A DNA stretch of 33,069 bases, taken from positions 1-33,069 of IMG/VR virus record IMGVR_UViG_3300045952_000062; one strand, 5' to 3'. The notes below the pieces were generated by a model that saw only the letters and a list, made by a program, of their open reading frames with translations, did not search any database and was not told where the DNA came from. The position numbers and the translations under genes were made by a program. This document shows, in pieces, positions 1 through 26,949 of the stretch. Positions within the stretch are counted from its first letter, which is position 1, and each line of letters opens with the position of its first letter. This DNA comes from a virus.

Positions 1-249
1 ATGGACATCCTCAAGAAGCATGTCTTCTACGGCTCCGAAATCGACTGGAAACACGTTCGCGAGGAGCTTGGGGATAGTCAGTGGTATCAAGCGCTCCTCA
101 TTGACGTTTCAGATACCTCATTCGAGGAGGTGCAGAAGCTTAACATTGACAAGCTGAGGGTTCGATACCCCGACAAGTTCGACCCTGAGCAAGCTCTCAA
201 CAGGAATCTTGAAGCTGAGCGTAAGGTGCTCGGAAAGGAAGGTGAGTAG
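1..249 (+). CDS. Unknown small early protein (82 aa, possibly 5'-truncated)
   Basis: The frame is open from the ATG at the first base of the window to the TAG at 247-249. Because the window starts exactly here, the true start could lie further upstream. The protein is charged and mainly helical in character, with no membrane segment, signal peptide or motif I recognise. Its stop lies just before the GTG start of the HNH gene, and the SD of that gene (AAGGAAG, 235-241) lies inside it. Its place at the head of a + strand replication block suggests an early phage protein. Function unknown. Confidence 0.6.
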   Translation: MDILKKHVFYGSEIDWKHVREELGDSQWYQALLIDVSDTSFEEVQKLNIDKLRVRYPDKFDPEQALNRNLEAERKVLGKEGE

Positions 250-250
250 G

Positions 251-607
251 GTGGCTTTTGGACGTGGTCGGAGTTCTCCCGTAGCCAGGATTCTGACCAA
301 GTCAGCCCGTCAGCCTAATGGCTGTCTTCTCTTCACTGGTGGGATAAGTAGCAACGGTTACGGCATGATTTGGTCAGGGGGTGAGCTGAGGTCCGTTCAT
401 AGGATAATGCTGGAGCACAAATTAGGCCGACCAATCAGGGAAGGCTACATGAGTCTCCATAAATGCCACACTCGGAACTGTGTGGAAGTCGAGCATCTCT
501 ATGAGGGGACATCAAAAGACAACAGTAGGGATACGCTTCTAGCAGGCAATCGCAGAGACAAGGGGAGGGAGCTTAAAATCCCTCTCACTTACAAAAGGAG
601 CAGTTAA
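251..607 (+). CDS. HNH endonuclease (homing-type)
   Basis: A 118-residue protein with the compact HNH fold of phage homing nucleases: residues 48-50 (VHR), H70-K-C72-H73, N76-C77 and H82-L form the HNH/Cys cluster, and the stretch around residues 69-86 reads LHKCHTRNCVEVEHLYEG. The family nicks or cuts DNA with one metal ion and often spreads as a selfish free-standing gene. The frame is open further up to a TTG at 209, but I chose GTG 251 because AAGGAAG at 235-241 is correctly placed for it and the upstream part only repeats the end of the previous gene in another frame. It is less GC-rich in appearance than the next gene, which fits later insertion. Confidence 0.85.
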   Translation: MAFGRGRSSPVARILTKSARQPNGCLLFTGGISSNGYGMIWSGGELRSVHRIMLEHKLGRPIREGYMSLHKCHTRNCVEVEHLYEGTSKDNSRDTLLAGNRRDKGRELKIPLTYKRSS

Positions 608-1786: not shown

Positions 1787-2062
1787 ATGAAACGTCGGGA
1801 ATTCATCAAGTCTCTTTTTGTAGCCGCCGTAGCCAGTCAAGTTCCTGTTGACTGCTCTCCGCCTCCACCTCTGTCTCTTTACGGTATCCCTTATCACCAA
1901 TCTAATGCTTTCTCCGGGACATGGTTGGGAATTGATCGCTCAACCTACCCTCAGTGGAGCAGCAAGGTCAGTCCCGCTGCCCATCGTGACGTTTACAAAG
2001 CTCTAGTTGAATTGGTCAGGAAGATAAGGATTGCAAATGAAAATCGACGTTGGCCTGATTGA
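1787..2062 (+). CDS. Tat-signal-like protein with a major-capsid-protein-like segment (91 aa)
   Basis: The first 22 residues look like a twin-arginine export signal: KRREFIK followed by a short hydrophobic run (SLFVAAVASQVPV). A Pro-rich linker (SPPPPL) comes next. Residues 33-57, from GIPYH to STYPQW, align without gaps to residues 228-252 of the major capsid protein encoded at 25705-26949, with 16 of 25 identical (P-Y-H, N-A, S-G, W-L-G, D-R, T-Y-P). The nucleotide codons differ mostly at third positions, so this is not a recent copy. The rest (60-91) is helical and similar only in character. The SD AAGGAG is at 1776-1781. The last 26 bases overlap the next gene. Export has not been shown; the RR motif may be fortuitous. 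The piece could be a decayed or repurposed capsid fragment. Confidence 0.75.
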   Translation: MKRREFIKSLFVAAVASQVPVDCSPPPPLSLYGIPYHQSNAFSGTWLGIDRSTYPQWSSKVSPAAHRDVYKALVELVRKIRIANENRRWPD

Positions 2063-3320
2063 GATCCCTGAACCTACCGAGAGCATAGAGGAGGAGACGC
2101 TCGTTGCCCTGACTGAGTCCATCAGAGAGCAAGGGCTGTCGCACCCCATAATAGTTCGCCCGGCGAACATTTCCGGTAGGTTCCTTCTGGCGTCTGGGGA
2201 GAAACGTCTATTGGCTGCGAAGCGTCTGGAGTGGACGCAGATCGAAGCCGAGATTCGAGATATAGATGAGAAGAAAGCCAAAGAGATCCGCATCCACGAA
2301 AACCTCAAACGCTTCAACCTCCCGTGGTGGGACCAGGTCAAACTCACCGAAGCGCTCCATCTCCTCAGACAAGAAGAACATGGCGTCGCACAAAGAGGCA
2401 GGCCGTCCAAGCAAGAGGAAAAGACGGGCTGGTCGATTCGTGACACTGCCGAAGAACTCGGCGTTGGTATTGGACCGCTTTCTGAGGACCTTTCGCTGGC
2501 CCGAGCCCTTCGCGCCGACCCGACGCTTTCTAAAGTTACTGACAAGAAGACGGCAATCAAGCTCATTCGGACCGCCGCTATTCGGCATGAAGCGGAGATG
2601 ACCGCTGGCCTCCCCTCCAAGATAGACTACAATCAAGTTTTATTTGGGGATGCTTCGGAACTTCTCAAGCATCTGCCCGACCAGTCCATCGACCACGCAA
2701 TCGTAGACCCACCTTGGATCAAATTCTTTGAGGAAAGTTTGACGATTGACGAGCGGACGCTGCCGGTCTTCAGGGAACTGTATCGCGTTCTCAAGTCTGG
2801 GTCGATGCTCTACATCTTCGCTGGCTTCGACGATTACGCTTACTACGCGGGCGTGACAGTCCCGGACCCCAACAATCCCAAGGAGACAACCAAGATACAG
2901 GGCCAGTTGGAGAAGCTGGGCTACAACGTCTCCTCTACTCCCATCGTTTGGCAGAAGCTCAGTTCATTGAGCAGGAGAGGCGTTAGGGCATGGGAGTATG
3001 ACAGGGACTTCGAGTTCATTGTAGTCGCAGCGAAAGGAGCACCCGCGCTCACTTCCTCCTCCCGCTTCTCAGGTGTCAAGCCCTTCGCTATCGTCCCTCC
3101 CGTCAAGATGATTCATCCGAACGAGAAGCCAGTTGAGTTGATCAAGGAAATCCTCAACGACTGCTCGTATCCCGGCAACATCATCCTTGACACCTTCGGC
3201 GGTTCTGGCGTTCTGGGTCAAGCCTGTAAGGAGACTGACAGGAAATACCTCATCATGGAACGGGACCGAGCCACCTACGAGAAGATCGTCAGAAGGCTGG
3301 AGGGAAACAATGGTAACTAA
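2037..3320 (+). CDS. ParB-like nuclease domain fused to DNA (N4/N6) methyltransferase
   Basis: A 427-residue protein in two parts. Residues 1-110 form a ParB/Srx-type N-terminal domain (PIIVRP 37-42, the GERR-like box SGEKRLLAAK 53-62, and HENLKR 87-92), followed by a helix-turn-helix-like stretch (WSIRDTAEELGVG, 132-144). Residues 198-420 are a methyltransferase: DPPW at 224-227 is the catalytic motif IV of amino-methylating enzymes, HPNEKP (360-365) and DTFGGSGVLGQA (385-396, motif I) bind AdoMet. Having DPPW before motif I gives the beta-class order. The enzyme should methylate adenine N6 or cytosine N4, perhaps protecting phage DNA from restriction or marking replication. I start at ATG 2037, six bases after AAGGA (2026-2030), rather than TTG 2031. 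No cognate restriction gene is nearby. Confidence 0.92.
   Translation: MKIDVGLIEIPEPTESIEEETLVALTESIREQGLSHPIIVRPANISGRFLLASGEKRLLAAKRLEWTQIEAEIRDIDEKKAKEIRIHENLKRFNLPWWDQVKLTEALHLLRQEEHGVAQRGRPSKQEEKTGWSIRDTAEELGVGIGPLSEDLSLARALRADPTLSKVTDKKTAIKLIRTAAIRHEAEMTAGLPSKIDYNQVLFGDASELLKHLPDQSIDHAIVDPPWIKFFEESLTIDERTLPVFRELYRVLKSGSMLYIFAGFDDYAYYAGVTVPDPNNPKETTKIQGQLEKLGYNVSSTPIVWQKLSSLSRRGVRAWEYDRDFEFIVVAAKGAPALTSSSRFSGVKPFAIVPPVKMIHPNEKPVELIKEILNDCSYPGNIILDTFGGSGVLGQACKETDRKYLIMERDRATYEKIVRRLEGNNGN
2154..2168. repeat. Palindromic repeat copy 1 (GTTCGCC-C-GGCGAAC)
   Basis: A perfect 7-bp inverted repeat around a single C. Together with its flanks it matches two other sites in the window (23704-23718 and 31042-31056): on the + strand here it reads ATAGTTCGCCCGGCGAACA. 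It sits inside the ParB-domain coding sequence, at residues 40-44. Confidence 0.6.
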
Positions 3321-11824: not shown

Positions 11825-12951
11825 TAGAGGAAAGCTCCTGCGATGCCCGCGCCCGCCCCGAGGTAATCCATCCAGCTCTTTTGCGGATTGTTCTGTATGC
11901 GCTGGCCGATATTGCCCTGCTGGATGCCTGCGCTAGTCTGTCTGTTACCGAGCTCGTAGTCCAGCCCGCGACCGTAGACGCCTTCCTGTGCGCCGTAGAG
12001 GGAATGCAGACCCTCCAGCCCAATCATCTGGCGACGGAAGGCATCATCAGCTGCCGCTCTGGAAGCAGAAGCAGACGCAGCCGCAGCCCTCTCAGCAGCA
12101 GCTCTGTCGGATTCAGCTCGCTGCTCGATGCCTGACCATCCGGTCCTGTTGCGACCATAGATGTCAGTTTCGAGTCCCTGAGTCATGTTGCCGGCTGTCT
12201 CAAGCGAACCGCCTCTGAGACTCTGATAGCGATTCTCTGCCAGACTCATCGCCTCAGCCGCGCTCATACGGCCAGTCCTGACTGCTTCGGAAATTCCCAT
12301 TTCTGCGTTCCGAGCAGCTTCAGCAGCAGCGCCAGCCTGACCGCGTCCCATCCGAGCCATGAGGACAGCCTTGCCCGGTCCTCCGCCGCCCTGGACGGAA
12401 GCCAGTCGATTGGCCTCTGTTTTCATCCGGTCATACATTGCGGGAATGCCGGATGTCCCACGTGCTCGGATGTTGGCTTTGTCAGCGTCAGAGTATCCGC
12501 CAGTCCGTGAGAACTCGTCGAATACTCCATCGCCCCTCATGCGTCGAGCAATCTCTGGGTCATCGGCGATTCCACGAATCTTCGTGATATCACCTTCCAG
12601 AGACTTGAGGCGCTCCGGGTCCCAACCGCCCGTCTTTGGGTCAGTCAGTTTCCGGTAATATTCCTCGACCTCTTTAAAGCGAGGATCTCCCGGCATAGGA
12701 GCTCCACCGCCTCCGCCTCCACCACCTGCTCCACCTGCACCGCCGGCGCCTCCAGCTCCCCCTTCTCCTCCCAGCCCAGCGAGGGAGCGATACTGAGCGT
12801 TGAGGGTGTTGTAGAGGTCGTCAGTTCGACCAGTGGCTTTTGACAGGTCGCCCTGACTACGGCCGTAAGCATTCCCGTAGGCGGTCTGCTCCTGGCCATA
12901 CTGCTGACCTATCATCTGGTTCGTCTGTTTCTTTTCTTTTCCGCCACCCAT
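11824..12951 (-). CDS. Internal virion-type protein, Gly/Ala-rich (375 aa)
   Basis: Begins MGGGKEKKQTNQMIGQQYG and has a glycine run at about residues 60-84 (GGAGGAGGAGGAGGGGGGGG), followed by helical segments with many Ala, Arg and Glu (GQAGAAAEAARNAEMGISEAV, and DRAAAERAAAASASAS). It ends in a short hydrophobic stretch, WMDYLGAGAGIAGAFL, a pattern I know from small internal proteins of podoviruses that insert into the outer or inner membrane (T7 gp14-like slot). Preceding it is an AGGAGG SD in the end of the GNAT gene and a TAATG overlap with it. No catalytic motif. Function inferred from order and composition. Confidence 0.88.
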   Translation of the reverse strand: MGGGKEKKQTNQMIGQQYGQEQTAYGNAYGRSQGDLSKATGRTDDLYNTLNAQYRSLAGLGGEGGAGGAGGAGGAGGGGGGGGAPMPGDPRFKEVEEYYRKLTDPKTGGWDPERLKSLEGDITKIRGIADDPEIARRMRGDGVFDEFSRTGGYSDADKANIRARGTSGIPAMYDRMKTEANRLASVQGGGGPGKAVLMARMGRGQAGAAAEAARNAEMGISEAVRTGRMSAAEAMSLAENRYQSLRGGSLETAGNMTQGLETDIYGRNRTGWSGIEQRAESDRAAAERAAAASASASRAAADDAFRRQMIGLEGLHSLYGAQEGVYGRGLDYELGNRQTSAGIQQGNIGQRIQNNPQKSWMDYLGAGAGIAGAFL

Positions 12952-13340
12952 TAGAGCCTCCTCAGTAGCAGCTCCCCAGGATTGTCAACTCGATCGAACG
13001 AGAAGTGTTTTTGTATGAGCAAGGAGAAATCCGGATCTCGTATAAAGCAGTAGATATCCTTAATGCCCGCGAGGTCTGTGCCTCTGAAAGCCTCATGCAT
13101 GAGTAACCGAGTAGCAGCAGCGCGATCTCGTTTTCTAACAGTCGGGTCAAGAAAGAGCATCGCTTCGGCGAATAGTCTGACTTGCCCGTAGCCCACCACT
13201 CTGTCCGACTCATCGACCGCAACAGCATCGATTATCCTGCTCTCTAATCCCGGTAGCGAAGACTCATGCGACCAGTGTTCTCGCCAGAGTGTGTCGAGCG
13301 TGAGAATGTCAGATGGCGTCAAAGTTCGGAGTTTTATCAT
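12951..13340 (-). CDS. GNAT-like N-acetyltransferase domain protein (129 aa)
   Basis: A small protein with the GNAT strand order: KLRTLTPSDILTLDTLW at the start, AVAVDESDRVVGYGQVRL (39-56) as the beta hairpin, MLFLDPTVRKRDRAAATRLLMHEAF (61-85) as the acetyl-CoA strand and helix, and a C-terminal DPDFSLLIQKHFSF. The Q/R-x-x-G-x-G/A acetyl-CoA loop is degenerate, with R-K-R-D-R-A in its place, so activity is uncertain. Two readings are possible. It may be the counterpart of the small GNAT-like protein that precedes the internal virion genes in T7-like phages (gene 13 position), or it may be a third modifying enzyme of the cassette upstream. Its start lies 32 bases inside the methyltransferase gene and its stop overlaps the next start (TAATG). 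Confidence 0.85.
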   Translation of the reverse strand: MIKLRTLTPSDILTLDTLWREHWSHESSLPGLESRIIDAVAVDESDRVVGYGQVRLFAEAMLFLDPTVRKRDRAAATRLLMHEAFRGTDLAGIKDIYCFIRDPDFSLLIQKHFSFDRVDNPGELLLRRL

Positions 13341-14649
13341 AGACGAAGTAGTCCGCGATATTGGGGCCTTTGCTCACCCCAAGAGCATGTCGGAACGAAC
13401 CTATCTCGACAGGCTCAATGTTGCCGTTGTAAGAGTAAATGACGAGAAAGCGGCAGCGACGCTCCAGAATAGCTCTGAGCTTGGTCCATCCCTCAGGGTT
13501 TTCGAGGAGGCGAGCCCGAGAAATAAGAGCAAGATCGAAATTATCAGGAAGGTCATCAAGGCTCCAGATATTAGCAGCAAGATGAGGCCTGTTTTTGGGG
13601 TCGGAGTCCACGCCGAAAATCTCCGCTCCAAACTCCTTTTCAAGTTTTCTGAGAAGTTCGCCATTACCACACCCAAAGTCTATGACGGAGGTAAAGGGTT
13701 GGATTCTGAGTAAGTCGAGAATAAGATTGTGTGCGTCTATCTCGGACTGTTTGTCCCTGAAGCCGTTATCCTGTGGACTGGTTTTGAGATAGGGAAACTT
13801 GAGTCCTGTAGCTGCTTCCTTCGGACCAGTGTTGCTATGGAGGCGGACGATTTTCTTCTCTGACAGCATATCGGTTCGCACTACTATCCGACACACTGGA
13901 GTAGAGATGATGGCGATTCCATGCAAACCTGACCACTCGATAGGCCAGGAGAGAATCTCTTTCAGAAGGTCAGCGAAAGTCCGACGACCCAGTCTAAGAG
14001 CGAGGTTGTAATAAAGCTCGCCCACTCTGCGAGTGTGAGGGCAATCGAAACTGCACGGAAGATGAGATACAAAACGAAGTCCCAGCCAGCGTAGGAGGAT
14101 ATTGTTAAAAGGACTGACAGCGAAATGATCAACAACGCCAGACGACATAGGAAAGCTAGTGTCCAGCCAGCTATCGTTCGTCCAAATTTTATTGAAGAAC
14201 GAAATGCAGCACAGAGGATAGCCGAGAAGCTCCCCAATCTGCTCATGGTCGCCAGCTTTGTAAGCGAGAACCATCCGGCTCACTTCCTTGGGCTGACCAA
14301 TAGCCAGCTTATATCCCCAGGGTCGGTTCAGGTCTACCAGCGAAGCCGAGGACGAATAGATGTCACTCAGCTGAACCTTGTCAACAGGAGCTACAAAGAG
14401 CCCCTCCAGCGTCTTTTTCTGCGTAAACTCATCCAGCTTATCGGCCGGACAGATTTGCAGACAGATATCTCGTAGCCCATATTTGACCGACTCTCCCTCC
14501 AGCCACTGGAAAAGACTCGAACACTCTTGAAAGACGCTTTCCCAGACTTCCCTAGCCTGACTGGAGGTCCAATTAAGCCGGACGAACTCTGCAGCCAGGT
14601 CCGGCTGCTTGACGAGATTGGTCCGTATGGTCTCCATGAGAATCCCCAT
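13309..14649 (-). CDS. Cys-rich GYPLCC-domain / SAM methyltransferase fusion protein (446 aa)
   Basis: A two-part protein. Residues 90-250 carry LLGYPLCCISFF (141-152) and HLPCSFDCPHT (196-206). This arrangement of paired cysteines recalls the DUF483-type 'GYPxCC' family as I remember it; the four cysteines and two histidines could bind metal or be redox-active. Residues 318-440 are a class I AdoMet methyltransferase: VIDFGCGNGELL (322-333) is motif I and FGVDSD (345-350) ends strand 2. The pairing with a radical SAM/SPASM protein immediately upstream, overlapping by 77 bases, points to a joint protein-modification pathway. Starts at 14649 or 14637 are both possible. The target is unknown; the HxD-repeat protein two genes upstream is the obvious candidate. 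Confidence 0.92.
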   Translation of the reverse strand: MGILMETIRTNLVKQPDLAAEFVRLNWTSSQAREVWESVFQECSSLFQWLEGESVKYGLRDICLQICPADKLDEFTQKKTLEGLFVAPVDKVQLSDIYSSSASLVDLNRPWGYKLAIGQPKEVSRMVLAYKAGDHEQIGELLGYPLCCISFFNKIWTNDSWLDTSFPMSSGVVDHFAVSPFNNILLRWLGLRFVSHLPCSFDCPHTRRVGELYYNLALRLGRRTFADLLKEILSWPIEWSGLHGIAIISTPVCRIVVRTDMLSEKKIVRLHSNTGPKEAATGLKFPYLKTSPQDNGFRDKQSEIDAHNLILDLLRIQPFTSVIDFGCGNGELLRKLEKEFGAEIFGVDSDPKNRPHLAANIWSLDDLPDNFDLALISRARLLENPEGWTKLRAILERRCRFLVIYSYNGNIEPVEIGSFRHALGVSKGPNIADYFVYDKTPNFDAI

Positions 14650-15748
14650 GAGGAACGTCCCCGTGCTCTGTTATCTGACCAGTCAGTGAACCGATAAATT
14701 CTCGATTCATTTGGTCGAAGTCTAGCAAGGACTCGCCACTGACCTGTATGTCGGCTCTGATATGGTCCATCAGTTTATACCAAAACTGACAGTCTTTCGT
14801 CCGATTCCGCCAGTCTCCGTCGATAGCTGTGCCCGGACACTGACCTTTGCAAGCGAAGAAGTAGAGACAGTCCTTGCAGCCTCCATCCTTCCACTCTGTC
14901 TTGGCAAGAGCTTCGTATCTTTCACGACTCGGGGTGTTTGCTTTGAGCCAGTCTATTCCTTCCTTGGTCGTTCTTCCACAGTTTACAAGCGCGCCCTCTG
15001 GGTTGATTCCATGGACGGCCGGCGTAGTGAGAGGGTCACAGCCTGACCAGATGCAGGTCGCACTCGCGTTCCTCTTGGTCAGCAGCTGTTTGATGTCCTC
15101 GAATGGGAGATACTTGATTTTCGACTGCCTCGTATCGTCGTAGATTGCCTTGAAGATGTCGAAGTTCTCTTCGTCAGTCAGGTCAAGGCTCTCGGCGGTT
15201 TCTATGTTGTCTACCTCAAGGTTGTGGAGATTCACTTGCTTGACCCCGAGAAGCTCCATATCCTTGAAGAAGCGAAGCAGACCCGGCAGATGTTCGACGC
15301 TCTTGCGATGGATGGTAGTGATAAGAGAGACCTCAACGCCTTCAGAGGTCATGAGTTGGATGTTGTCGATGATTTTCCTGGTTATTTCGTCAGAGCATCG
15401 AGGACTGTTTGCTCCCTCCGGTCCATCAATCGAGACTCCGACATGAACTCGATAAGCACGAAACATATCAACATGAGCAGGAGTAACAAGAGTGCCGTTA
15501 GTCTGAATACCATTACTACGGAACTTCTGATATCCATACTCCCAAATCTCCTTCAACTGCTCGATGGATGCAAGTAGAGGCTCGCCGCCAAAGACAGAGA
15601 AAGACTGATTCGATCTGCTCAAAGCCTCCTTTACCTTTACGAAGTTGAGAGGGGCAGAGAAATTTCCAGCTTCCCTCATAGGCTCCTGATAACAGTAGGT
15701 GCAGCTGAGGTTGCACTTGATTCCGACGGGCAAGTATTCTACTGTCAT
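14573..15748 (-). CDS. Radical SAM/SPASM protein with C-terminal HxD tail (391 aa)
   Basis: A complete radical SAM maturase. C12-x3-C16-x2-C19 binds the catalytic 4Fe-4S cluster and AdoMet, followed by FGGEPLL (53-59, the GGEP motif) and VSIDGP (105-110). The C-terminal SPASM domain fits its consensus exactly: C237-x14-G252-x4-C257, then C291-x2-C294-x5-C300-x3-C304 and C320, which can hold auxiliary clusters. The family includes anaerobic sulfatase-maturating enzymes and RiPP peptide maturases acting on proteins. Residues 362-376 are four H-x-D motifs (HGD, HGD, HGD, HTD), the same motif as the repeats of the upstream protein. Its ATG overlaps that gene's stop (ATGA), giving coupled translation. 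No RiPP leader-binding domain at the N-terminus was visible. Confidence 0.95.
   Translation of the reverse strand: MTVEYLPVGIKCNLSCTYCYQEPMREAGNFSAPLNFVKVKEALSRSNQSFSVFGGEPLLASIEQLKEIWEYGYQKFRSNGIQTNGTLVTPAHVDMFRAYRVHVGVSIDGPEGANSPRCSDEITRKIIDNIQLMTSEGVEVSLITTIHRKSVEHLPGLLRFFKDMELLGVKQVNLHNLEVDNIETAESLDLTDEENFDIFKAIYDDTRQSKIKYLPFEDIKQLLTKRNASATCIWSGCDPLTTPAVHGINPEGALVNCGRTTKEGIDWLKANTPSRERYEALAKTEWKDGGCKDCLYFFACKGQCPGTAIDGDWRNRTKDCQFWYKLMDHIRADIQVSGESLLDFDQMNREFIGSLTGQITEHGDVPHGDSHGDHTDQSRQAAGPGCRVRPA
14621..14665 (-). repeat. Four H-x-D motifs at the end of the radical SAM protein
   Basis: Codons for HGD, HGD, HGD and HTD (residues 362-376 of the radical SAM protein). The first 29 bases of the downstream methyltransferase frame (ATG at 14649 and ATG at 14637) lie within this same DNA in another frame. 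The match to the repeats at 15769-16365 in motif and in small spacers (V-P, S) is clear. Confidence 0.8.
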
Positions 15749-16689
15749 GGTCCTATCAGTATCGGTTGGTCTACGTGAGCGACGTCGCCATGAGTGTCAG
15801 TGTGAGTGTCCTGGTGAACTGCGTCGCTATGAGAATCGCCATGTGGAGAGTCTGAGTGCGCTACGGTATCCCAGTAATCCCCATGAGTTGCGTATGGTGG
15901 AACATCTTGATGGGGACTATCAGAATGCCAATCGTCGTGGGCAAAGTCCCAGTGCTGTCCATAGTCCCAATGGTCAGGATGAGCAGGAGGAGCACCACCA
16001 GCACCATCAGTATGATCGCCGAACGTCCACTCATCGTAGTGTGTGGCTCCGTATGGGTTTCCCTCTGCACCATAGGGACTAGAGTAGCAATCTGCGTGCT
16101 CCCACCTTGTTCTGACTGGCCCATCGAAGTGAGTCCCAGGTGCAGCAACATCTCTCCAGCAATCGTTGTGGTCACCGAAATTGACTGCCGGAGTATCCCC
16201 ATGAGCAGAATCCCAAAAATCGCTATGAGGAGTATCATTATGCCAGTCGTCGTGAACGCTAGAAGGAGGGACATCCACATGAGCGTTGTCAACATGCGGA
16301 ACGTCGATGTGAGCGCCGTCCGTGTGAGCATCACCATGAGTATTGACAGTAGCGACGTCCCAGTGATTGTTGAGGACTTGATGACGCGTTCCATCGTAAT
16401 ACCACAGCCAGCTCAGGTAGTTGTTCGACTGTTCAACCCAAACGCTCGTGATGGGCGGTCCGAGCGGTATCGTCTTAACGTGGTTTACTGGGGTCCGATA
16501 GATGGCAGTGCCAGCTTCATTAACCCAATAAATACCAGCTGTAGTCCCAGAATCCTGCCAAATAGAGCCTGGTAGGGCTCCCGAGACATTCTTGATGAAA
16601 GTTCCAGGAGAATACCACTCACGATTAAAAGCATCGACATAGTGAAGGTCGTTCCCCTCGACCCAGAGCGAGCCAGCGACTTTAGCCAT
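15745..16689 (-). CDS. Fibre-like protein with 29 H-x-D repeats (candidate substrate of the rSAM enzyme)
   Basis: A 314-residue protein. Residues 1-107 contain three degenerate W-containing modules (GSLWVEGNDLHYVD, GSIWQDSGTTAGIYW, TSVWVEQSNNYLSW) of the sort found in phage tail and fibre proteins. From residue 109 to 307 every histidine is in H-x-D, 29 motifs in all, with the middle residue variable (W, G, T, I, V, D, N, S, F, A, Y, P, Q) and spacers of 0 to 20 residues. Aromatic residues and two cysteines (HNDC, HADC) are mixed in. No known fold is apparent; such a surface could bind metals. The gene starts in a TAATG overlap with a tail-fibre gene and its stop overlaps the radical SAM start, so it belongs to the virion operon. 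Probably a virion tail component that is modified; role inferred. Confidence 0.93.
   Translation of the reverse strand: MAKVAGSLWVEGNDLHYVDAFNREWYSPGTFIKNVSGALPGSIWQDSGTTAGIYWVNEAGTAIYRTPVNHVKTIPLGPPITSVWVEQSNNYLSWLWYYDGTRHQVLNNHWDVATVNTHGDAHTDGAHIDVPHVDNAHVDVPPSSVHDDWHNDTPHSDFWDSAHGDTPAVNFGDHNDCWRDVAAPGTHFDGPVRTRWEHADCYSSPYGAEGNPYGATHYDEWTFGDHTDGAGGAPPAHPDHWDYGQHWDFAHDDWHSDSPHQDVPPYATHGDYWDTVAHSDSPHGDSHSDAVHQDTHTDTHGDVAHVDQPILIGP
15769..16365 (-). repeat. H-x-D repeat region (29 motifs)
   Basis: Codes for residues 109-307 of the fibre-like protein. The repeat is at the amino-acid level; the DNA is not a simple tandem repeat, which suggests selection on the H and D positions rather than recent slippage. 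Confidence 0.85.
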
Positions 16690-18568: not shown

Positions 18569-19363
18569 TTATTCCTGAGAGACAGCAATCATCTGCCAAG
18601 TGCCGTAGTAAGCATTCCATCTGAAGCCCATATGGATAACTCGGTTAGGAGCTGTCGACGTAGGCATTGCGACACCGCAGCAGGTGTGAAAGTTTCCTCC
18701 GTAAGCTATCGGGCGAGCCGCGCCATTGTCTCTAAGCCTGACAATTACTGGATGACCGTCATAGGCTCCGGCAGTCCCTGAAATTGTGACGCCGCTAGAA
18801 ATGGCATTCACGATGTAAAGGTCGTAAGAACTACTAAGACCAAAGCTAGTGGTATCACTAACGGAATAAGTCCGAGGAAAAAGGACGCCAGCAGTCCAGA
18901 TATTACCAGCTACATAAAATCCCGTATTGCAATATAAGCCGTATGAACCATGACCAGCTATCCACCAGGAATTTTGCCAAGTCCAACCTGTATCTAATCG
19001 TCCAGGACTCATTGGACCAGAAGTCCAGACATGACCGATACGATTGATTGCTAGTAGTTGATTGAGGACACCAGAGTAAGCATCGTTAATAGTCCTAATT
19101 TGAAATTGAGCACTGGTATGAACTATATCGACGTTTTTGGCATCAACTCCCTGAGTTGTATCCCTAAGAGTAAGTAAGGGATTAGCCTTACTAATCATCT
19201 GGTCAGCACTGAACTCGTTGTTTATGTCCTTATAGGCAACGTTCGACGGCAACGCTCCAGCGTCAGTCCCTTCTACAGCAATCTTCAAGACCTGCCACGA
19301 GCCTCCATTATCGTCGGAGACCTCAAAGACGCGCGACGTCCGATTGAACCGCTGCCAACCCAC
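18569..19363 (-). CDS. Tail fibre / receptor-binding-type protein (264 aa)
   Basis: Starts GTG at 19363 inside a TAGTG overlap with the FN3 gene. The beginning (MGWQRFNRTSRVFEV) shares the RFNRTSxxFE box with the short fibre at 16689-17153, then comes KDINNEFSADQMISKANPLLTL, a common fibre trunk pattern (N-x-F-x-A-x-Q...P-x-L-x-L). The C-terminal half is beta-rich, including FHTCCGVAMPTSTAPN with a CC pair and HMGFRWNAYYGTWQMIAVSQ at the end, as in trimeric tips. Function as a fibre that contacts the cell surface is inferred from this pattern and position. Confidence 0.88.
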   Translation of the reverse strand: MGWQRFNRTSRVFEVSDDNGGSWQVLKIAVEGTDAGALPSNVAYKDINNEFSADQMISKANPLLTLRDTTQGVDAKNVDIVHTSAQFQIRTINDAYSGVLNQLLAINRIGHVWTSGPMSPGRLDTGWTWQNSWWIAGHGSYGLYCNTGFYVAGNIWTAGVLFPRTYSVSDTTSFGLSSSYDLYIVNAISSGVTISGTAGAYDGHPVIVRLRDNGAARPIAYGGNFHTCCGVAMPTSTAPNRVIHMGFRWNAYYGTWQMIAVSQE

Positions 19364-20811
19364 TAGACGATGCCTCTCGCTTTCCAGTCGACTGTCTTGG
19401 TTACCCTAGCTCCCATCGTGTCAAAGACGAAGACCTTGAAGAACGTAGGATTAGGCGCGTCAACGAAGTCAAAGATAACGACATAGGGCTCGATTACGCT
19501 CTTGGTCGTGCAGGTAATAGACTCTATGTCCCTGAAAGGTTTCGTGAACAGGACCGTAGTGCCACCAACGTCAGTAGCAAGAGCATTAACCTCCCCACCG
19601 TCATTCTCTCGCTTAACATTAAGACTAATAGTAAGATTATAGAGCTCAATGAAAACTTTGTCATTTTCCGCCACGAACTCTAATCTGTAGCGAAGATAAC
19701 GAAGTTGGGAGAAATACTGGGAAGCTCCGACGTTCATGCCGGACCAAGCTATCCCATCGTCTGAAACCTCCATCTTGACCGTGACTGCGACGTTGTATTC
19801 AGGGACAAAGATGATGGTATTCCAGGTGATGGTGACAATCGTGTTGTGAATAACGACGCCGTAGTCGATAGTTTCTTCGTAAGAGCCGTTGATTGCAGAC
19901 GGTTGGATGTAAATCGGATAGCCTGCTGTAACTTGGTCTTCCGGGTCCAGCCAGGAGCGAGTCGTGAAATGTCCCTGCCAGTCCTGAATCGTCCAGCAAG
20001 CCAGAAGAGAGGGCCGCTCAGGAAGTCGAATGACGTTGACACGCGTCCCATTGAGCCCAGAGACTTGAGTGTCTTGCAGAGCAAAGTCAGGAGGTGTGCT
20101 GACGTGAACGGTAGTCGAAGCCTCAGCTCCCACATTCCCTGCAATGTCAACCGCTCGAACACTGTATGTATAATCGCCAGCGACGACTTCGAAGATTGAA
20201 GTAAAAGTGCCGTCGACTCGACCTTCCGCCTCTGAGTCGCCAGTTTTGTCAACGAGGTAGTAGTCAATCTTGAAGGTAGAAACAGGCTCAGTCCAGTAGA
20301 GAAGAACGTTGTTGTCGATGACAGAGACAGTGATGGCAGGAGCCAGAATGAGTGGAACATCAAACGTCGTAGCCTGAAAAGTAGCTGAGTAGTTACCCTG
20401 AGAGTCGAGCGTCTTGATGAGGAAGTTGTAAGATCCATACAGGAGTGGGTCAATGTCTCCCTGTAGACCCGTAGTCCTAAACAGGAGAGAAGCCGTCTCC
20501 CAGACAGTGCCCTGCCTAATCTCATACTGCGCTGCGTAGTCGACGTGGTTCCAAGTGAATCTGACTGTTGTGCGGGTGGAAAAGCAAGTGAATCCACTTG
20601 GAGCTGGGAGAGTAGATACGCCTCCAGCGACCTGCCCAGACTTCCGGACAAGCGGAGAAACCTCCTGAGTGAGCCTCTCGATCTGCGTGTTAAGGAGCAA
20701 GATAGCATCGTAAAGTCTCGCGTCCTTTATCTGAACGCCCTGCATGAGCGACTCAACCTCATGCTGGACGGACCCAATGATTGAGTCTTCTGGCGGCTGC
20801 TTTGTCGCCAT
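19363..20811 (-). CDS. Tail protein with coiled coil and two FN3-like domains (482 aa)
   Basis: Residues 12-55 form an N-terminal coiled coil (VQHEVESLMQG, LLLNTQIERLTQEVS). Residues about 68-150 and 155-240 are two fibronectin-type-III-like domains (PAPSGFTCFSTRTTVRFTWNHV and AAQYEIRQG; then YWTEPVSTFKIDYYLVDK and YSVRAVDIAGNVG). The rest (245-482) is a beta-rich C-terminal region with a jelly-roll-like feel (SDDGIAWSGMNVG). FN3 domains decorate many phage tail tips. The gene is coupled to the nozzle-like gene (TAATG) and to the next fibre gene. Probably a tail hub or fibre base component. Confidence 0.9.
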   Translation of the reverse strand: MATKQPPEDSIIGSVQHEVESLMQGVQIKDARLYDAILLLNTQIERLTQEVSPLVRKSGQVAGGVSTLPAPSGFTCFSTRTTVRFTWNHVDYAAQYEIRQGTVWETASLLFRTTGLQGDIDPLLYGSYNFLIKTLDSQGNYSATFQATTFDVPLILAPAITVSVIDNNVLLYWTEPVSTFKIDYYLVDKTGDSEAEGRVDGTFTSIFEVVAGDYTYSVRAVDIAGNVGAEASTTVHVSTPPDFALQDTQVSGLNGTRVNVIRLPERPSLLACWTIQDWQGHFTTRSWLDPEDQVTAGYPIYIQPSAINGSYEETIDYGVVIHNTIVTITWNTIIFVPEYNVAVTVKMEVSDDGIAWSGMNVGASQYFSQLRYLRYRLEFVAENDKVFIELYNLTISLNVKRENDGGEVNALATDVGGTTVLFTKPFRDIESITCTTKSVIEPYVVIFDFVDAPNPTFFKVFVFDTMGARVTKTVDWKARGIV

Positions 20812-23721: not shown

Positions 23722-24045
23722 TTATTTTCGGGTCGCCAAGTAGCTTATCGCACTTTGTAGTAGAGCGGGGTTATCCTTGAATCGACCCAGCCCCTGATTG
23801 CAATCGTCACAGAGGAGACCTCGAATTGCATCGTCTGAGTGCCTGTGGTCAACGACGAGAGTTTTGTCTGGGACAACACCGCAGATAGCACAACGGCCAG
23901 CCTGTTTCTCCAGCAGCTCTTGAAACTCAGATTCCCCAATCTTATACTTCCTCCAGAGATTGAGGTCTCTCGTTGTTCTCCCAACATACGGCCTTCTTTT
24001 TCGAGTCTCTATCTCCCTTTTCCTCTTGAAGAGTGGAGAGCTCAC
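23722..24045 (-). CDS. Recombination endonuclease VII-type HNH protein (107 aa)
   Basis: Residues 50-86 carry C52-x2-C55, the D66-H67-R-H69 catalytic box (VVDHRHSDDAIRGLLC) and C79-x2-C82-N83, followed by GLGRFKDNPALLQSAISYL. This is the T4 endonuclease VII-type HNH fold, with two CxxC pairs holding zinc; the enzyme cuts branched DNA, but most phage members of this size are free-standing homing nucleases. The basic N-terminus (FKRKREIETRKRRPY) would bind DNA. It starts GTG at 24045 overlapping the preceding stop (GTGA). Its presence in the middle of a structural operon suggests homing insertion, although a packaging-related nuclease role cannot be excluded. Confidence 0.9.
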   Translation of the reverse strand: MSSPLFKRKREIETRKRRPYVGRTTRDLNLWRKYKIGESEFQELLEKQAGRCAICGVVPDKTLVVDHRHSDDAIRGLLCDDCNQGLGRFKDNPALLQSAISYLATRK

Positions 24046-25704: not shown

Positions 25705-26949
25705 CTAGTAGCCAGTCGGAACCGTGAGTGCGTCAATGTAGCTGCACCCCGGCGGGTTGTTGATGAAGGTGTTGAAGCTCGCGACGAGATAGAACAGCGT
25801 CGCCGCGGCCACACCACCGGATGCTCCACGGACCTCGAAGAGGCGACGTCCTTCCTCCTCGTAGAATCCGGCAGGCTTCATCTCCGCACGGCCCCAGACC
25901 TCGTCGACCACGAAGTCGATGCGGGTCTTGTCCCAGTTGAAGTGCTTTCTCATGGGAACGCCCGCGATCTGCTGCACGTCGAAGTAGAGGTCGAGGTTCT
26001 CCTTGGCATTCGGCGTCTTGTTGATTTGCGTGACCAGTTGGCCAAGCTCCTCGTAAGCAGCCGCCTGACAGGGATTCAACCACGCCTTGCACTTGATCCC
26101 GTGCTCCATCCCGAGACGCTCGCCGATCTTGTTCAGCGCGCGACGAGCATGGGGCAGAGCCAGAGCACCAGCCGCGTTGATCCGGTTCGCCCGAATCTCG
26201 GGGTAGGTGTTCCGGTCGAGACCCAACCACGCTCCCGAAGAAGCGTTGTTGTGGTGATACGGGACGCCAAGGATACCGACGGGGTTTGCACCCGCGAGGC
26301 CCGAAGCGACGATCTTGTCGCCGTTCGTGACGTTCGCGACAGCAGTTCCCTCGTAGGTGATGGTCTTGGCCTCGGGGTCGGCAGAGATAACCTTCCGCTC
26401 GTCGCCGACCGTCCGCTGGGTGGTCAGTGTCGAGTTGTAGATGTTGATCTTCTGCCCGATGCGGATGAGACGTGTTCCGAATCCATCCGTCCCGAGAGTG
26501 AGCGTGGTGCCCGCGACGTTCGATACGACACCGAGGACGCCGTCGCCGGCAGTCATCAGGTTCGCGTCGACCATGCGGCGGAACTCCTTCATGGCGTTTG
26601 CCAGAAGGTGCTTGACCGAGTTGACAACCGACTTCCTTGCGTCGTCGGTCGCCCACTGAGTCTTCTTGTGCCATTCCACGGCATACTTGAAATTCACCGT
26701 GGAGATGGTCGCCTTTTCGAAGGTCGGACCTTCGCCGCGCCCCATGTCGCCACCTGCTGCGTCGTAGTAGCCGAAGAGGCCACCAGGACGAATCTCCAGC
26801 GGAATGCGCATGTCTCGCGCGGACACCTTCTCGACTTCGCGCTTTTCGACGTTCGCATAGAACATCGCATCGCGCTCGAAGAGAAGGGGAACTTTGGGAG
26901 CTACTCGCTCCAGTTCCGCGGCCACGACCTGAGACTCTGTTTGAGCCAT
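25705..26949 (-). CDS. Major capsid protein (414 aa)
   Basis: The position after the scaffold and before a small beta-rich protein, the 414-residue size, and patterns such as VPLLFERDAMFYANVEK, LEIRPGGLFGYYDAAGGDMGRG (51-72), FKYAVEWHKKTQWATDD (87-103) and GVPYHHNNASSGAWLGLDR (228-246) identify it as an HK97-fold type head protein of a family common in environmental phages. Many copies form the icosahedral shell on the scaffold. Residues 228-252 are the part mirrored in the early gene at 1787-2062. SD is GAGGACC upstream of ATG 26949. Its GC-rich, biased codon use is in line with high expression. Confidence 0.93.
   Translation of the reverse strand: MAQTESQVVAAELERVAPKVPLLFERDAMFYANVEKREVEKVSARDMRIPLEIRPGGLFGYYDAAGGDMGRGEGPTFEKATISTVNFKYAVEWHKKTQWATDDARKSVVNSVKHLLANAMKEFRRMVDANLMTAGDGVLGVVSNVAGTTLTLGTDGFGTRLIRIGQKINIYNSTLTTQRTVGDERKVISADPEAKTITYEGTAVANVTNGDKIVASGLAGANPVGILGVPYHHNNASSGAWLGLDRNTYPEIRANRINAAGALALPHARRALNKIGERLGMEHGIKCKAWLNPCQAAAYEELGQLVTQINKTPNAKENLDLYFDVQQIAGVPMRKHFNWDKTRIDFVVDEVWGRAEMKPAGFYEEEGRRLFEVRGASGGVAAATLFYLVASFNTFINNPPGCSYIDALTVPTGY

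Follow-up and report, generated by a model that had tools for sequence, protein, structure and literature searches.

A radical SAM/SPASM enzyme and an aromatic-x-Asp/Asn repeat protein of bacterial and archaeal viruses: a predicted system for stapling tail fibres

The radical S-adenosylmethionine (SAM) enzymes that make triceptides, or three-residue cyclophanes (XncB/XyeB, OscB/GrrM, FxsB, YhhB, HaaB, and YxdB), carry a SPASM domain, act next to aromatic-x-(Asp/Asn) repeats, and crosslink residue i to residue i+2; the reviewed precedents are OscB (Trp to Asn/Asp), OscB and XncB (Phe to Asn), YxdB (Tyr to Asp), HaaB (His to Ala), and YhhB (His to Arg) (PMC11002830). Their substrates are short, secreted, leader-bearing peptides. 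Here we describe a trio of genes in an IMG/VR phage contig (IMGVR_UViG_3300045952_000062; 33,069 bases, the whole of which we call the window) that shows the same pairing of a radical SAM/SPASM enzyme with an aromatic-x-(Asp/Asn) repeat, but in which the repeat belongs to an apparent tail-fibre protein, with 8 to ~100 units across the family, and in which the enzyme has a DUF483 partner and an HxD-bearing tail of its own. No transporter or protease is annotated directly beside the trio in the phages Cumys, phiMa, and phiLo or at a haloarchaeal locus (L248; loci are given as L numbers), and the neighbors in the window gave no such match. We think it likely that the trio is a maturation system for the tail fibre, in which the repeat protein is the substrate of the radical SAM/SPASM enzyme and DUF483 its partner.

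Other described systems resemble the locus in part. ChlB, called a "multiple cyclophane synthase" by the title of one of the references of PMC12636437, acts on the precursor of a ribosomally synthesized and post-translationally modified peptide (RiPP) that has a leader peptide, and is ~18% identical to the window enzyme. The sulfatase-maturing enzyme anSME (PDB 4k36-4k39) shares the fold and the SPASM layout, with strong profile and fold matches, but oxidizes a single Cys/Ser of a sulfatase; the window enzyme reaches 82.6 of the 349 bits required by TIGR03942, and no protein among those scanned in the window matched a sulfatase-like substrate. The His-Xaa-Ser system (HxsB/HxsC) likewise places radical SAM enzymes beside a His-containing repeat, but has two such enzymes and HxS, whereas the window has one enzyme and HxD/HxN. 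An earlier note on this DNA, made from the sequence alone, had likened the locus to the His-Xaa-Ser type; the nearest precedents turned out to be the cyclophane-forming maturases (the HxsB score is 39 bits for a cut-off of 370). Finally, the module of the Thermus phages Cumys and phiMa consists of the identical three genes in the identical order and is the same system. It was noted in 2024 as a radical SAM enzyme with two unknown proteins, one of them DUF483, for which DNA modification was proposed; the repeat motif goes unmentioned in the passages found, and the word "histidine" is absent from the main text (PMC11437467). We found no paper in the open-access literature that names the repeat, the substrate, or a link to the tail. 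The earlier note, which knew of no such system described in phages, is nearly right: the module had been noted, but its substrate had gone unrecognized, at least as far as the passages found in the 2024 paper tell.

All three genes of the trio lie on the minus strand of the window: the repeat protein, a putative substrate of 314 amino acids (15745-16689); the radical SAM/SPASM enzyme of 391 amino acids (14573-15748); and, as the third gene, a protein with DUF483 and METHYLTRANSFERASE (13309-14649). The stop codon of the repeat gene shares four bases, ATGA, with the start of the enzyme gene at 15745-15748, and the third gene, if read from the start listed for it, shares 77 bases with the enzyme gene, a later start being possible. 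The trio follows, in the same gene run and on the strand of the terminase gene, a tail/host-specificity gene (19363-20811, minus strand; phrog_1727, E 1.1e-13; phrog_31, E 1.9e-6). The overlapping stop and start, the fusion of a GYPLCC domain to a methyltransferase after the enzyme, and the single minus-strand virion operon had all been pointed out before and were borne out here.

Residues 1-108 of the repeat protein form its N-terminal domain, with about three repeats of the GSxW type, and are followed by a region of aromatic-x-Asp units (residues 109-310; 15760-16365, minus strand). The protein contains 32 His residues, of which 29 lie from residue 109 on, and all 29 of these stand in H-x-D; our recount agrees exactly with the 29 motifs, and no other His, that had been claimed for residues 109-307. 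When the repeat region was shuffled 10,000 times, H-x-D occurred 5.1 times on average and 13 times at most. Five further Asp residues have an aromatic residue at -2 (FWD, FGD, WRD, FGD, and YWD), such that no Asp of the region stands outside [HFYW]xD unless it is in the middle of an HDD. The units are separated irregularly by 3 to 19 residues. The codons for His (16 CAC, 16 CAT) and Asp (22 GAT, 18 GAC) are evenly mixed, indicating that the motif is kept at the protein level and is not a recent tandem repeat of the DNA. Searches of Pfam, PHROGs, and NCBIfam gave nothing for the protein. Homologues that share both its N-terminal repeats and its motif are found in L002, L003, L004, L005, L055, L248, and others.

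Motif statistics for the family were drawn from 59 non-redundant repeat proteins, with regions set by dense HxD alone; a wider aromatic-x-D/N mask was dropped since it biases the counts of Phe, Tyr, and Trp, and the HxD-only mask was used together with a comparison of related pairs. In these regions, 94.7% of the His residues are followed at +2 by Asp and 3.9% by Asn, and at -2 of those Asp residues that stand outside HxD, Tyr, Phe, and Trp are enriched 10.8-fold, 11.2-fold, and 5.2-fold, respectively. When related repeat proteins were compared in 22 independent pairs, substitution was far lower at the first (12.5%) and third (12.2%) positions of the motif than at the middle position (44.8%). 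The commonest swaps were D/N (45), F/H (33), and H/Y (15), with only 3 to 4 between Asp and Glu; since F/H requires two base changes, simple mutation pressure does not explain it. At the motif positions, exactly two changes separate Cumys from phiMa, an H to Y and an N to D. In the repeat units of L229, Asp or Asn stands at +2 of 17 of 18 Trp, 32 of 32 His, and 18 of 27 Tyr residues. The motif is thus aromatic-x-Asp/Asn, with His, Phe, Tyr, and Trp interchanging at position 1, Asp and Asn at position 3, and a free middle position, a pattern that marks the substrates of cyclophane-forming radical SAM enzymes. Proteins of the family are roughly 200-1400 amino acids long. The proposal that the enzyme targets His or Asp of the repeat accordingly gains support from the motif and from the co-occurrence described below, but the conserved entity is the whole aromatic-x-Asp/Asn unit rather than either residue singly. 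The wider motif had been overlooked in the earlier note, as had the HxD tail of the enzyme and the fusion of repeats to known tail-fibre proteins.

The substitution pattern also bears on the idea that the repeats form a metal-binding fibre, comparable to phage fibre tips with HxH, and that the radical SAM module acts elsewhere or helps in metal loading. Fibre tips with iron-holding HxH motifs are known (T4 gp37), and His and Asp are classic metal ligands. Position 1, however, is exchanged for Phe, Tyr, or Trp and not for Cys, Asp, or Glu, and Phe or Trp is not something that metal binding is expected to tolerate at this position; the exchange of position 3 with Asn, far above that with Glu, points the same way. 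HxH itself is absent from the window repeat and was counted only 4 times in 1602 across relatives. Since the irregular spacing of the units and the constant pairing with the radical SAM enzyme would also remain unexplained, we regard a metal-binding fibre as improbable.

The enzyme matches the radical SAM family PF04055 at 54.6 bits (cut-off 29.5). Its CX3CX2C motif lies at residues 12-19, and Cys 12, 16, and 19 as well as the SPASM cysteines 232, 237, 257, 291, 294, 300, 304, and 320 are invariant in 61 of 61 non-redundant relatives. All 54 family members scanned match the NCBIfam models DynA, AmcB, anSME, YhhB, PapB, GrrM, XyeB, and FxsB, most of which are annotated as crosslink-forming. The AlphaFold2 model of the window enzyme (mean pLDDT 87.9; the alignments for the structure models left out two rows from annotated phage records) has ChlB as its best Foldseek match (PDB 9gm3 and 9gmc; E 1.6e-14; TM-score 0.65-0.68). 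The motif of the repeat protein recurs in the enzyme itself: 58 of the 61 relatives have HxD, usually HGD, in a C-terminal tail, and His stands in HxD in 311 of 395 cases in the tails vs. 34 of 565 in the enzyme bodies. In the window, this substrate-like tail (EHGDVPHGDSHGDHTD, ~residues 365-380; 14609-14656, minus strand) carries four HxD and is predicted to be disordered, with pLDDT below 50 for residues 360-391, so that the model speaks neither for nor against a tail docked in the active site. As a weaker guess, the tail could be a docking segment or one that the enzyme modifies on itself.

Next, we consider where the trio occurs. Three cultured phages of Thermus and about 100 loci of environmental phages carry it, and it is also present in Bacillota genomes and in a haloarchaeal provirus. 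A tblastn search with the enzyme against named phages returned the Thermus phages Cumys, phiMa, and phiLo. Cumys and phiMa have the gene order repeat protein, radical SAM enzyme, DUF483 protein, and all His residues of their repeats stand in HxD (54 of 54 and 53 of 53, respectively); phiLo has the enzyme and DUF483 genes, and nearby, on the opposite strand, repeat proteins with 72, 101, and at least 17 HxD. A profile search added 50 loci of environmental phages, of which 47 belong to the enzyme family, and a locus in the Chengkuizengella axinellae genome, and two more Bacillota genomes bearing the enzyme were found among 399 sampled. On plasmid NZ_CP100467 of the haloarchaeon Halomicrococcus gelatinilyticus (L248, 7338-10498), the trio lies beside a baseplate J gene, and the archaeal repeat protein has 14 HxD and 9 YxD. 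A tree with 15 sampled outgroup radical SAM enzymes places all 65 family members in a single clade (FastTree support 0.975).

Co-occurrence was followed in both directions, and the counts include some records reached by both searches. Starting from the enzyme, an HxD-rich open reading frame (ORF) lies upstream within 1.5 kb at 97 of 108 loci, and within 100 bp at 84; most of the other 11 loci have an HxN-rich, opposite-strand, more distant, or truncated version of the repeat. Starting from a DNA pattern of four HxD units, blind to the enzyme, 84 loci matched, of which 11 were discarded as unrelated H/D-rich or wrong-frame sequence, and 62 of the 73 genuine repeat loci have the enzyme, 57 on the same stretch and 5 elsewhere in the record. 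At the remaining 11 repeat loci, which lack the family enzyme, we found no radical SAM enzyme of any kind; 8 of them are cut off by a contig end, 4 directly on the downstream side and 4 on the upstream side or close to it, which leaves L187, L191, and L158 without such an explanation. The association thus passes from both sides the check that the earlier note had proposed. In L187, L207, L150, L184, and L189, all phage fragments in which no radical SAM gene was found, the repeats alternate FxN with HxD (as in SFVNSHND); L187 lies inside a 46 kb record.

These counts also bear on whether the repeat is simply a chance, low-complexity sequence with the enzyme gene as a passenger. Tandem low-complexity sequence can spread fast, and the unrelated matches to the DNA pattern are a reminder of this; yet the motif is far more frequent than in the shuffled sequences, its codons are mixed, its first and third positions are conserved while the middle is free, and the trio persists in viruses of bacteria and archaea alike. 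The co-occurrence data already contradict this explanation, which has next to no probability in our judgment.

In-frame fusions with known tail-fibre proteins speak for the repeat protein being part of a tail fibre. The HxD region shares one ORF with a J-like central tail fibre in L019 (phrog_31, E 2.7e-47; PF13550), with collagen-like tail fibres in L038 and L045 (phrog_5073, E 4e-46 and 1e-53, respectively), and with a LamG protein in L018, whereas elsewhere the HxD regions come after the N-terminal domain of three GSxW repeats. In Cumys and in the haloarchaeal provirus, the repeat gene comes just after baseplate or collar genes. The fusions favor the assignment to the tail that had been suggested for the repeat domain.

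The third protein of the trio combines a DUF483 (GYPLCC) domain (residues ~20-270) with an AdoMet (S-adenosylmethionine) methyltransferase domain (residues ~300-440). The DUF483 part scores 19.9 bits against PF04467 (E 8e-4), below the gathering score of 25, but the homologue in Cumys is annotated as a DUF483-domain protein, indicating that the window protein is a divergent relative. GYPxCC is conserved across the relatives, and the conserved residues Cys147, Cys148, Cys/His199, and Cys203 plausibly form a metal site. In a fold search with the AlphaFold2 model (mean pLDDT 90.6), the methyltransferase half matched known methyltransferases and the DUF483 half had no clear match in the PDB. The solved sequences closest to the methyltransferase are the plantazolicin N-methyltransferases BpumL and BamL, which is a weak hint. 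Most environmental members carry the methyltransferase domain as a fusion, but Cumys, phiMa, and L055 lack it, so that the domain is optional. A DUF483 gene comes next in nearly every locus with room for one. We would guess, with less weight, that DUF483 is a metal-bearing partner required for activity or substrate handling and that the methyltransferase adds an optional finishing step. In L003 (10536-11744) and L016 (10876-12327), a further ORF beyond the DUF483 gene has a short run of HND/PPHNDVPP units and is perhaps another small substrate.

Judging from the sequences, the radical SAM enzyme very probably acts on the repeats. By analogy with the triceptide enzymes, the product that we predict, with reasonable though not high confidence, is an i to i+2 crosslink from an aromatic ring to a beta-carbon. 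The enzyme would recognize aromatic-x-Asp/Asn units, mostly His-x-Asp, along the exposed fibre protein and would join the ring of residue i to the beta-carbon of the Asp or Asn at i+2. With dozens to ~100 such staples, a chain that is rich in Gly, Ser, Thr, Asp, and His and otherwise flexible would become a rod at the tip of the tail, stiff and resistant to proteases; the location in the tail and the flexible, polar character of the unmodified chain suggest that a stiff and resistant fibre may be the purpose. Each residue class seen here is precedented among the reviewed crosslinks, and the His-Asp pair itself is a prediction. Overall, we lean toward the view that bacterial and archaeal viruses encode a dedicated radical SAM crosslinker that staples their own tail fibre, mainly through His-Asp crosslinks.

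Several observations weigh against such stapling. None of the precedents reviewed in PMC11002830 joins His to Asp. The window enzyme falls below every curated cut-off of the cyclophane families, the best being 91 of 450 bits (AmcB, 89 of 425; GrrM, 64 of 310; YhhB, 51 of 445), and the non-crosslinking anSME is about equal to the cyclophane synthases by sequence and nearly equal by fold. In the window repeat, only 6 of 22 aromatic residues other than His have Asp or Asn at +2. Repeat proteins occur in records that have no radical SAM gene (L187, L191, and L158), although these records may be fragments. Finally, plasmid NZ_CP100402 of Halorussus aquaticus (L249, 7971-10176) carries the enzyme and DUF483 pair with no aromatic-x-D/N repeat ORF within the 17 kb read and with no phage genes annotated around it, so that the pair may have other uses.

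The similarity to anSME also speaks for the possibility that the enzyme modifies the repeats without crosslinking the units, for example by beta-hydroxylation, oxidation, epimerization, or C-methylation of His or Asp, or by forming a ring with another residue. SPASM enzymes are varied in their chemistry, beta-hydroxylation of His and Asp is known in a cyclophane-bearing precursor (PMC12636437), and a methyltransferase domain is often fused into the module. Chemistry at single residues would, however, leave unexplained both the exact spacing of two residues and the exchanges within the aromatic class and between Asp and Asn. We therefore hold such modification to be unlikely, while giving it more weight than any of the other alternatives.

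The Halorussus pair in turn favors the explanation that the enzyme and DUF483 modify phage DNA, as proposed for the Thermus phages, and that the repeat protein is merely a neighbor. Cyanobacterial homologues lie beside deazapurine DNA-modification genes, according to the passages found in PMC11437467. This explanation is made less likely because the neighbor carries a substrate-like motif that is also present in the enzyme tail, in nearly all relatives; moreover, the repeat gene is the immediate upstream neighbor in most loci, among tail genes, and the radical SAM models with the best matches across all members mostly describe maturases of peptides or proteins. DNA modification is, in our estimate, very improbable.

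Compared with the stapling of small peptides, the predicted stapling of the fibre would be chemistry of a known kind, if confirmed, and its use on a virion fibre at such density is new. It would be, as far as we found, the first case of a virus that encodes a radical SAM enzyme for the maturation of its virion fibre, and no substrate in this class of enzymes would be more heavily crosslinked than the repeat protein, with 29 units in the window and up to ~100 per chain in phiLo. Cyclophane chemistry would then serve virion architecture and not a small natural product, as a new route to fibre stiffening, and a function would be assigned to the Thermus phage module that has been labeled "unknown" or "DNA modification", together with a partner role for DUF483. 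The prediction is directly testable in phages that grow on T. thermophilus HB8, and the enzymes would serve for making multiply stapled protein rods.

Other features of the window lie outside the trio. After it, at 12951-13340 on the minus strand, a 129-amino acid protein reads like a small GNAT acetyltransferase, but none of Pfam, PHROGs, and NCBIfam gave a match for it. Neither a tRNA nor an Rfam family was found in the window. ORFs at 209-607 (plus strand) and 23722-24045 (minus strand) read like HNH endonucleases by eye, one of them between virion genes, and a ParB-like domain is fused to a DNA methyltransferase at 2031-3320 (plus strand). A small early-region ORF at 1787-2062 (plus strand) has 29 residues that are 59% identical (E 5e-13) to a likely capsid protein at 25705-26949 (minus strand), and is either a misplaced capsid fragment or the bearer of a shared motif.

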